From an uncultured Sphingomonas sp. (GTDB lineage: Bacteria > Pseudomonadota > Alphaproteobacteria > Sphingomonadales > Sphingomonadaceae), in the NCBI RefSeq assembly GCF_913777625.1, contig NZ_CAJYTI010000026.1, positions 1 to 64,000 of the forward strand: DNA of 64,000 nt, given 5' to 3'. Position numbers and translations under genes: made by a program. The notes under the pieces were generated by a model. It did no database searches, was not told the origin of the DNA, and worked only from the letters and a program-made list of their open reading frames with translations. Of this stretch, positions 16,024-37,720 are shown one piece after another. Numbering within the stretch: position 1 is the stretch's first letter; each line of letters opens with the position of its first letter.

Positions 16024-16638
16024 TCAGCCGTCCAGACCCGCGGCAAAGGCCAGCCGCAGCGCCTCGGAAAGGCTGCGCGCCTCGAGCTTGGCCATGGCGT
16101 TGGCGCGGTGCACCTCCACCGTGCGCGGCGAGATGCCGAGATCATAGGCGATCGTCTTGTTCGGATGCCCGCGCACCAGCCCGCGCAGCACGTCCTGTTC
16201 GCGCGGCGAGAGCAGGCCGATGCGCCGCTCCGCATCGGCCTGGGTGGCGTCGGCGGCGTCGCCTTCCTCGATCCGTTCGAACCCGCGCTCGAGTGCCTCC
16301 AGCAGCGCGTCGCGATCGAACGGCTTTTCGAGAAAGTCGATCGCACCGCCCTTCATCGCGGCCACCGCGGTGCCGACATCGCCGTGCCCGGTGAGCACGA
16401 TCACCGGCAGCTTCACGCCGCGCTTGCCGAGTTCGGCCTGCACCTCGATGCCGTCCATCTCGGGCATGCGCACGTCGAGCAGGATACAGCCCGGCCTGGC
16501 ATCCTGCACCTTCTCCAGGAAGGCGACGCCGGAGGGATAGGTGTCGACGTCATAGCCCGAGGTGCGCAGCAGGAAACTGGTCGATCGGCGGACCGACTCC
16601 TCGTCGTCGACCAGGTGGACGCGCTTGCGCTCGCTCAT
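16024..16638 (-). CDS. fixJ: Two-component response regulator FixJ
   Basis: 204 residues. Receiver domain 1-120 with acidic pair DD near residue 11, phospho-acceptor Asp55 in [16 protein letters not shown] and the KPF lysine. C-terminal LuxR-type helix-turn-helix ([15 protein letters not shown], then [23 protein letters not shown]). FixJ activates low-oxygen genes when phosphorylated by FixL. Its ATG overlaps the fixL stop by 4 bp, so the two are co-translated. The track ORF that reaches to 16980 is an upstream extension within fixL. Confidence 0.92.
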
Positions 16639-18149
16639 GCAGGCTCCTCGTTTGCGGACATCAGGGTGAAGTTGAAGATCGTTCCGCCCTCGGCGCGGGG
16701 CTCGGCCCAGATCCGGCCGCCATGCGCCTCGACGATGGTGCGGCAGATCGACAGGCCCAGCCCCATGCCGCGTTCCTTGGTGGTCGCAAAGGCCTGGAAC
16801 AGCCGGGGCGCCTGTTCGGGGGCGATGCCGGGGCCGGTATCGGCCACCCAGACGCGCACCAGGTTGCGCGGCGCCAGTTCCGATCCGATCGTGATCTCGC
16901 GCACCGGGCTCGCCGCCATCGCCTCGATCGCGTTGCGGATCAGGTTGACCAGCACCTGCTGGATCTGCACCCGGTCGCACAGCACCTGCGTCGCGTGCGG
17001 ATCGAGCGCGTAGAAGGCGCGCACGCCCAGCTCGCGCGATCCGGTGAGCGCCAGGCGGCTGGCCTCGTCGATCAGCCGGGGCAGGTCGACCAGCCCCATG
17101 TCCGCCTCGCCCCGCGCGACGAATTCGCGCAGGCGGCGCACGATGTTGCCGGCCCGCAGCGCCTCCTTGACCGATTCCTCCATCGCCTCCTGGATCATCG
17201 CCTGATCCTCGGGATCGCCGCTGTCGCGGTCCATCAGCGTGCGGCCCGCCTCCAGATAGTTGGCGATGGCGGTGAGCGGCTGGTTGAGCTCATGCGCCAG
17301 CGTCGAGGCCATGGTGCCCATGGCGGAGAGCCGCGAGACGTGGATAAGCTCCGACTGGAGCTCCTTCAGCTGCAGCTCGGCGCGCTGCTCGTCGGTCAGG
17401 TCGCGGATGAAGCCGGTGAAGATGCGGTGGCCGTCGCTGCTCGCTTCGCCGACCTGCAGCTCCATCGGGAAATCGGTGCCGTCGCGCCGCTGGCCGACGA
17501 CGATGCGGCCGATGCCGATCACCCGGCGCTCGCCGGTGGTGAGGTAGCGGGCGAGATAGCTGTCGTGCAGCTGCGCGTCGGGCGCGGGCATCAGCATGCT
17601 GACATTGCGGCCGATCACGTCCGCTTCCTTCCATCCGAACAGCCGCTCGGCCGCCGCGCTGAACGAGAGGATCACGCCCTTGTCGTCGATCACCACCATT
17701 GCCGAGGGCACGGTGGCGAGGATCGAGCGCAGGTGGAGCGCACTGCCTGCCAGCGCGGTCTGCGACGCCTTCAGGTCGGTGATGTCGCGGAACACCTCGG
17801 CATAGCCGTGCAAGGTGCCGTCGGCGGCGACCAGCGCGCTGAGCTGGACCTCGGCCAGATACTCGCTGCCGTCGCGGCGGATGCGCCAGCCTTCCTCGAT
17901 CAGCCGGCCGGCGGCACGGGCGCGGGCCAGATCGCGCGCGGGCTTGCCGGCGGCGGTTTCGGCAGGGGGATAGTGCAGCGCGAAATGGGCACCGTGCAGC
18001 TCGGCCGAGGTCCACCCGTCGAGCAGTTCCACCCCGCGACTCCAGCTGGCGATCCGGCCCTCGGCATCGAGCAGCAACACGCCACGATCGCTCGCCGCTT
18101 CGAACAGAAGCGCCATCGCGATCGGGTCGTGGCTCGGACGGTTCGCCAT
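16635..18149 (-). CDS. fixL: Oxygen-sensing histidine kinase FixL
   Basis: 504 residues. PAS 1 at about 12-125; haem PAS at about 138-252; dimerisation/phospho-acceptor H286 in AHELNQP; ATPase domain at about 385-500 with [14 protein letters not shown]. The second PAS matches rhizobial FixL closely: His195 in HDSYLARY is the expected proximal haem ligand, with Arg201 and Arg215 (GIGRIV) at the positions that sense bound oxygen. So it should be a cytoplasmic haem oxygen sensor. No transmembrane segments are seen. No nif or fix genes are in the window, so it probably controls micro-oxic respiration rather than nitrogen fixation. Confidence 0.92.
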
Positions 18150-18227: not shown

Positions 18228-18279
18228 AGTAAAGGGACGCGTCTTCCGCGATGCTGCCGCCTTCCAGATGGAGGCGAAG

Positions 18280-18396
18280 ATGCTCGACGTCATCGGCAGC
18301 AATTATCTCTACATGGTGGCGGGTGCGATGGGGGTGTTCACCCTTGCGCTCGCGTTCGTCAGCCTCAGCGAGTACATGCATCCGCGCGATCGTTGA
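18280..18396 (+). CDS. 38-residue single-span membrane protein downstream of FNR/FixK box
   Basis: Starting at ATG 18280, with GGAGG five bases upstream, the product is MLDVIGSNYLYMVAGAMG... ending in EYMHPRDR: one hydrophobic helix (about residues 10-30) and a short charged tail. The longer ORF-track start lies in the regulatory box. No family is recognised; it is not clearly CcoQ, CydX or another known small oxidase subunit. The box and the neighbouring fixLJ suggest oxygen control. Confidence 0.6.
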   Translation: MLDVIGSNYLYMVAGAMGVFTLALAFVSLSEYMHPRDR

Positions 18397-36542: not shown

Positions 36543-36959
36543 TCAACCCGCGGCGGCCTCGGCCGCGGTGCGGGCCTGCACCGCCATGGCGCGGCACATG
36601 CGGTGCAGCGCCTCGCTCATCTGGCGGGCCGTCTCGGGGTCCAGCCCCGGATCGGCGCCGATCGCGCGGTCCATCGCGTGCGCCCATTGCGCCGCGGTAT
36701 GGCCGGTGACCTTGAGCTGGCGATGAAAGCCCATGATGCACATGCCGGGCCGTGCCTCGAACCAGTCGCGCGGGCCGCCGAGCCAGGCGACCAGGAAGCG
36801 GGTGAGCGAATGGCGCAGCGCGGTCAGGTCCGGCTGGTGCATCGCGTGGAGGGCGGCATAGGCCGGGTCCTGCTCGACCAGGTCGTAGAAGCGGTCGACG
36901 ATGGCGCGGACAGGCGCTTCGCCGCCAAGACGATCAAAGGGCAGGGAGGATTCGGACAT
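36543..36959 (-). CDS. Group II-like truncated haemoglobin
   Basis: 138 residues. Bacterial globin pattern: FDRLGGEAPVRAIVDRFYDLVEQDP, ALHAMHQPDL, RHSLTRFLVAWLGGP (WLGGP is typical of group II), FHRQLKVTGHTAAQW with the proximal His in GFHRQL and Trp in QWAHAM. Such globins bind oxygen or nitric oxide and can act in NO or ROS defence. The upstream FNR/FixK-like box puts it in a possible low-oxygen regulon. The usual RH before the proximal histidine is FH here. Confidence 0.88.
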   Translation of the reverse strand: MSESSLPFDRLGGEAPVRAIVDRFYDLVEQDPAYAALHAMHQPDLTALRHSLTRFLVAWLGGPRDWFEARPGMCIMGFHRQLKVTGHTAAQWAHAMDRAIGADPGLDPETARQMSEALHRMCRAMAVQARTAAEAAAG

Positions 36960-36995
36960 GGGATGCGCCTGTAGCGCAAATCCGCAGCGGGCGCG

Positions 36996-37009
36996 TTGAC
37001 GCGAATCAA
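36996..37009. promoter_or_regulatory. FNR/FixK-type box upstream of globin
   Basis: TTGACGCGAATCAA, inside CGTTGACGCGAATCAACG with perfect 6-bp arms, matches TTGAT-N4-ATCAA except one base. Its centre is about 43 bp before the globin ATG. If the centre is at -41.5, the transcript would start within a few bases of the ATG, i.e. nearly leaderless. Confidence 0.65.
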
Positions 37010-37051
37010 CGGCGATGCCGCCCTCCCGGTCGGGGAGGGCGGCAGGCTGGA

Positions 37052-37720
37052 TCAGAAGTGCGCGATCACACCCGCCATCGGGCGGAAGCTCTTCGCGTCG
37101 TTGAACGTGTTCATTTCCAGGCGCAGGCGCAGGCCGCTGCGGCCGGTGATGCCGCCCAGGCCGATGTCCTTCGGGCCGACCTCGACGCCGATGCCGTAGG
37201 TGACGGCGTTATAGTCGCGGCGGGTATCGGCAACCTTGTCGAAGTTCACCCACTGATAGCCGACCTTGCCGTAGATCAGGCCGCTGTCACCGGCGCGGAA
37301 CCCGAAACGGCCGGCGACGCCATATTCCCAGTCGATGTCGCCGCTCACGCCCTTGGCGACGTTACCTTCGGCGCCGACGAAGACCGGGCCCAGCGGCACG
37401 TTGACGCCGGCGACGCCCTGCACCAGCGCGCCGTCGAGGCGATACTTGTTCGGCGGGATCGGGATGCCGGCATTGGACTGGCGGTCGAACCGCTCCCAGC
37501 CGCCGAGCACGCCGACATAGGGCTCGATGCCGAATGCCTTGGAACCGTCCGGCGAACGCGGGGTCTCGCTGTCCTGCGCGGCGGTCGGGGTGCTCGTGGT
37601 GGTGGTGTCGGCCGACGTGGTCGCCGCGGTGCCGGAACCGGTGGTCATGTCCTGCGCGAAGGCGGGGACGGCGAAAGGAAGCGCGGCAGCGGCTGCCGCG
37701 ACGGCGATGATCGTACGCAT
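37052..37720 (-). CDS. Outer-membrane beta-barrel protein (OmpA/opacity-like)
   Basis: 222 residues from ATG 37720. Signal peptide MRTIIAVAAAAAALPFAVPAFAQ, then a Thr/Ser/Ala stretch, then alternating amphipathic strands (IEPYVGVLGGWERFD, FVGAEGNVAK, GVAGRFGFRAG, IYGKVGYQWV) ending in MAGVIAHF with C-terminal Phe, the mark for BAM assembly. Likely an eight-stranded barrel; function is unknown. Opposed to the longer track ORF by the signal peptide. Confidence 0.8.
   Translation of the reverse strand: MRTIIAVAAAAAALPFAVPAFAQDMTTGSGTAATTSADTTTTSTPTAAQDSETPRSPDGSKAFGIEPYVGVLGGWERFDRQSNAGIPIPPNKYRLDGALVQGVAGVNVPLGPVFVGAEGNVAKGVSGDIDWEYGVAGRFGFRAGDSGLIYGKVGYQWVNFDKVADTRRDYNAVTYGIGVEVGPKDIGLGGITGRSGLRLRLEMNTFNDAKSFRPMAGVIAHF

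Follow-up and report, generated by a model that had tools for sequence, protein, structure and literature searches.

A predicted leaderless truncated globin gene behind an FNR-type box in Sphingomonas

Neither FNR promoters nor leaderless mRNAs are new as such. In Sphingopyxis granuli TFA, whose transcription start sites have been mapped, a Fnr box of the form TTGAc/t-N4-g/aTCAA is located at −40.5 to −43.5 in most Fnr-activated promoters; at hemN2, the box stands at −42.5 relative to the mapped start (PMC7713065). Zymomonas mobilis, a member of the same order, has leaderless transcripts at 119 of 2,675 TSS-gene pairs (PMC7566282). A comparative study of Crp/Fnr regulators found only FnrN, and not FixK, in the Sphingomonadales examined, and listed hemN as an FnrN target (PMC4999443). 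A literature search retrieved no report of an FNR-type regulon with systematically leaderless targets. Here, a truncated globin gene with such a predicted architecture is described in a 64,000-nt stretch of DNA (hereafter the window) from an uncultured Sphingomonas sp., whose named relatives include Sphingomonas pituitosa, azotifigens and trueperi.

The globin gene and its FNR-type box

The family of the globin is clear from its Pfam match (Table 1), its PDB relatives and its residues, and it is therefore assigned as group II-like. Group II truncated globins are among the PDB relatives 4uur, 1ngk (HbO) and 2bkm, and the protein keeps Tyr24, His77 and Trp91, which we take to be positions B10, F8 and G8; with B10 Tyr, F8 His and G8 Trp, this member of the Bac_globin family fits a group II truncated globin (trHbO-like) in its sequence. 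The ATG at 36959 is the only plausible start, with no in-frame alternative upstream or within 60 nt downstream.

Table 1. Features of the globin locus and of related loci in the same genome
Feature	Position	Strand	Basis or remark
Truncated globin, group II-like, 138 aa	36543..36959	minus	Bac_globin (PF01152) match in Pfam, E 6.3e-21; PDB relatives; key residues
Predicted transcription start window	36959..36961	minus	predicted from geometry and the box positions mapped in Sphingopyxis granuli; leader 0–2 nt, ~3 at most
−10-like hexamer TACAGG	36968..36973	minus	T at centre+29 (= −12 if box at −41.5)
FNR-type box CGTTGACGCGAATCAACG (+ strand letters)	36994..37011	.	perfect CGTTGA-N6-TCAACG palindrome
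14-bp core of the globin box, TTGATTCGCGTCAA	36996-37009	minus	palindromic TTGAY-N4-RTCAA
GC hairpin between upstream gene and globin box	37016..37044	minus	−29.1 kcal/mol, z −4.8
Upstream codirectional gene, probable outer-membrane/beta-barrel (porin-like) protein	37052..37720	minus	ORF
FixJ-like response regulator ORF, follows FixL-like gene	16024-16980		Response_reg + GerE
FixL-like PAS histidine kinase	16635..18149	minus	NCBIfam FixL 528 bits, below 850 cut-off
Second FNR-type box TTGATCATCGTCAA	18214..18227	.	between fixL-like gene and small membrane protein gene
Small membrane protein, 38 aa, probable true start MLDVIGSNYLYM	18280..18396	plus	SD GGAGG at ~18270-18274
FNR-type box with hcp (hydroxylamine reductase) on one side and a divergent NsrR-like Rrf2 gene on the other	L002:1501-1514, G000 C20:234976		
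FnrL-like protein (L009/L233)	G000 C7:11022-11753		candidate activator

Read along the minus strand, the porin-like gene is followed by the GC hairpin, the palindrome, TACAGG and the globin ATG. On this strand the box (36994-37011) reads CGTTGATTCGCGTCAACG and is centred at 37002.5, 43.5 nt from the A of the ATG at 36959; the initial annotation, which had described the perfect CGTTGA/TCAACG arms and given 43, is thus confirmed. A box at exactly −41.5 would put the start at 36961, two bases before the ATG, and the −10-like TA is in register with a box at −41.5, the start position itself being taken from geometry. When the mapped box positions of S. granuli (−40.5 to −43.5) are applied to the globin, a leader of 0–3 nt is strongly predicted. 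Furthermore, no Shine-Dalgarno (SD) 4-mer precedes the ATG. The hairpin has arms conserved, with changes, in seven genomes and carries no T-run; probably, it is a T-less terminator insulating the globin promoter. Searches of Pfam and NCBIfam returned no match for the protein of the upstream gene. A reading of the TTGA half-site as a sigma-70 −35 element was rejected by inspection, because the −10 follows at about 30, where a −35 element would call for 17.

At up to one mismatch, the motif occurs twice in the window against a shuffle mean of 1.92, a count like that of the shuffles, so that the window by itself proves nothing. The whole genome has eight perfect sites against one for the reversed control, and three of the eight precede conserved targets, while those in L001, L003, L006 and L007 sit inside coding ORFs and are probably chance occurrences. 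The globin is present in 20 of the 201 Sphingomonas genomes, and most orthologues have a perfect box with altered N4. Among 167 unique globin loci drawn from genus, family and named genomes, a perfect box lies within 330 nt upstream in 113 and a box with one mismatch in 11 more, whereas none of 117 downstream control segments has a box, even at one mismatch. The box is more than chance, since it recurs perfect, with a changed spacer and at a nearly constant distance, in orthologues; judged by this conservation, it is a functional element, and the FNR-type box claimed in front of the globin is well supported by the counts.

Sphingomonads also harbor a separate paralogue clade of the same globin family without the box (L028, L029, L031-L033, L041, L044, L046), located directly behind other genes. 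In Sphingomonas sp. S2M10 (L141), the globin and the −10 region are kept and the box has decayed to TTGATTCCCTACAA, a natural loss variant. Apart from the globins, TTGATTAATGTCAA is conserved in several genomes in the spacer that separates a LysR-type regulator from a TonB receptor (L008:1501-1514, G000 C33:33310); this site is probably LysR-type rather than FNR.

Spacing between box and start codon

Among the globin loci, the distance from the box centre to the in-frame ATG is bimodal, with a sharp class at 40–43 nt (22 loci, counting L167, a probable misassignment in view of its SD-like run of purines and of further in-frame starts upstream) and a broad one at about 55–74 nt. An SD 4-mer is found in 2/22 close-class and 57/73 distant-class genes (p=6e-9; background 15%), and start codons are ATG in 22/22 of the close class against 53 ATG and 20 GTG in the distant class (p 0.005), both p-values being optimistic because loci related by descent are not independent. 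Both SD 4-mers of the close class fall within or beside the −10 region. In both classes TA dinucleotides peak at centre+29, the slot of the first two bases of the −10 hexamer if the box is at −41.5. The two classes thus bear the marks that leaderless and leadered genes would have when they share a single promoter type. For the window globin, the proposal of the initial annotation that it is possibly leaderless gains support from the 40–43 nt class, the SD counts and the TA peak, and leaderlessness is now a strong prediction. In the globin tree, the close class requires at least three changes forced by well-supported branches, and it is found in the Sphingomonas clade, in the genus of G287/G401 and in the lineage of Sphingobium SYK-6.

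A similar arrangement is found at hemN. In boxed hemN genes of Sphingomonas (among L313-L371), the ATG is 40–43 nt from the centre in 40/40 unique perfect-box loci (41 or 42 nt in 37), and A occupies the −11 position in 38/40. SD 4-mers precede 10/40 boxed hemN genes, a little more than the 15% background would give, but 11/18 of those lacking a box (p 0.017). Leaderlessness seems to be the rule among boxed Sphingomonas hemN genes. No box was found at the window strain's own hemN (L328), and the rule is therefore inapplicable to this strain. Over the genus, box-N33-36-ATG occurs in 161/201 genomes versus 117 for N37-40 and 115 for N29-32 (z ~4.8), and hemN, cydD and cyoA are among the genes that follow sites of this kind. 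By its recurrence in other sphingomonad lineages and at hemN, the putative leaderless geometry is not peculiar to the window globin; in sphingomonads, genes with an FNR box (hemN, cydD, trHb) appear widely to have their ATG at +1 of the FNR promoter. Whether FnrN/FnrL activation is coupled to leaderless translation in Sphingomonas is evenly poised: if it is, the low-oxygen regulon would be largely leaderless (hemN, trHb of several lineages, cydD), and its translation may be controlled apart from that of SD-led mRNAs.

Candidate activator, other targets and alternative readings

The genome codes for seven Crp/Fnr proteins that score above the Pfam cut-off. One of them, the FnrL-like protein, carries C21-x2-C24-x7-C32, C110 and the recognition helix IETVSR. 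The FnrN subgroup has been described by a C-x2-C-x7-C pattern, a central Cys and an E..SR helix (PMC7713065), and because the protein fits this pattern, it is a candidate FnrN/FnrL Fe-S regulator. In NCBIfam, FnrL ranks first for it with 202.6 bits, below the 300-bit equivalog cut-off, and hence it is named FnrL-like and not FnrL. A match at E 1e-30 is found in 101/201 genus genomes versus 13/14 genomes with a boxed globin, the boxed globin of G043 being the one that goes without. Among the inspected members of the seven proteins there is no stand-out FixK candidate; another Crp/Fnr protein, L015, has a TTGA-compatible helix too, RETVSR. Of the original label "FNR/FixK-like", the FNR part stands with a candidate that has the four cysteines and IETVSR, and the FixK part finds no stand-out counterpart among the inspected proteins. 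The activator of the globin box is likely an FnrN/FnrL-type Fe-S protein, to judge from these residues.

The second box of the window, on the fixLJ side, is perfect with a changed spacer in 12/12 relatives examined. In nine close genomes, a box is always present at both the globin and the small protein of the fixLJ side, and in six of the nine (G000, G002, G023, G054, G123, G141) also at hcp and the divergent NsrR-like gene. The shared regulation suggested earlier for the globin and the small protein is therefore supported for this pair, with a membership wider than proposed, as hcp and nsrR belong to it too. This set of globin, Hcp and NsrR may point to NO as well as oxygen. G123 has two hcp/nsrR-type boxes 283 bp apart.

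The small membrane protein probably starts at 18280 behind the SD GGAGG and would hence be leadered; its homologues L079-L082 start at or near the same Met. It was considered as a leaderless gene and rejected on account of the GGAGG before the second Met, at offset 59. Since its start is 59–61 nt from the box centre, and those of hcp and nsrR, read from ORFs, are at 68–70 and 62–63 nt, only the globin of these four genes in the window's strain shows spacing of the leaderless kind. In L366/L080 (G098 C11:10127-10177), and likewise in G076 and G129, a leaderless-type hemN and the gene of the small membrane protein flank one box, which may act on both in opposite directions, the first being leaderless and the second leadered.

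At the globin, the box, its conservation, the geometry, the −10 signal and the absence of an SD are seen in the sequence itself. We infer the identity of the activator, activation at low oxygen, the actual 5′ end and leaderless translation. In this model, a change in oxygen (or possibly NO) tension would lead an FnrN/FnrL-type [4Fe-4S] activator to bind TTGATTCGCGTCAA at about −41.5 and to contact RNA polymerase at the TACAGG −10 region; the transcript would begin at or just before A36959 and be translated leaderless, without an SD site. Such a dedicated class II FNR-type promoter with a start within 0–3 nt of the ATG is, in our estimate, very probably the correct reading.

That the box and its spacing are a matter of chance, or a LysR-type T-N11-A site, has next to no probability left: the motif is indeed no commoner than chance within the window, and the LysR/TonB-receptor spacer holds another conserved site of the same pattern, but conservation with a varied spacer refutes this reading, as the spacer changes freely across many genera at a fixed distance from the ATG and 0/117 controls have a box. 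It is rather unlikely that an NO-responsive Crp/Fnr protein of the FixK, NnrR or DNR kind uses the box in place of the Fe-S FnrN/FnrL protein, which would make the regulon one for NO stress instead of low oxygen. The box is common to hcp and the NsrR-like gene, which are NO-related, and L015 also offers a TTGA-compatible helix. As FNR itself is responsive to NO, however, the NO and low-oxygen readings are not exclusive. It is the FnrL homologue that has the best helix and the four-Cys pattern, and its occurrence goes together with that of the boxed globin; FnrN alone, not FixK, was found in the Sphingomonadales of one study (PMC4999443).

The box could also be a real FNR-type activator site at a gene whose main promoter gives a leader, by a start upstream of the box or by read-through from the outer-membrane gene. 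The globin start is a prediction, and about half of the Z. mobilis leaderless units have a leadered promoter as well (PMC7566282). We nevertheless consider a leader distinctly improbable, because a strong conserved hairpin parts the box from the upstream gene, SDs are generally absent in close-class and present in distant-class genes, and the position of the −10 signal agrees with transcription from the ATG. If the class II promoter with a leaderless transcript is real, the 5′ ends of dozens of genes would be predictable from sequence alone, natural matched sets with the same box and −10, with a leader or none, would be at hand for probing the role of leaderless translation at low oxygen, and the start codon would be able to slide into the promoter +1 repeatedly during evolution.

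Comparison with known systems

The globin shares B10 Tyr, F8 His, G8 Trp and a WLGGP motif with known group II truncated globins (HbO of M. tuberculosis, 1ngk; Geobacillus, 2bkm; 4uur). Before the F8 His, sphingomonad globins have (I/M)M(S/G)xH (residues 73–81 of the window globin), whereas the matched PDB group II chains have residues such as RxRH. A truncated globin under a Crp/Fnr-family activator is also known from Bradyrhizobium, bll6222 (PMC6710368); that one is a group III globin controlled by NnrR through a different box at −89, and the window globin differs in all of these.

The class II Fnr promoters of S. granuli TFA are alike in box consensus and bacterial order, and in the −41.5 placement and FnrN-type regulator predicted for the globin, but the globin is absent from the regulon listed there and leaderlessness is not a topic of that work (PMC7713065). 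The leaderless mRNAs of Z. mobilis (PMC7566282) and Caulobacter (PMC4287350) are alphaproteobacterial transcripts starting at the ATG, like the predicted globin mRNA; the accessible parts of these reports draw no link to FNR-type control, whereas the sphingomonad class recurs at the putative targets of one regulator. The globin promoter is made of ordinary parts in an unusual and recurrent combination.
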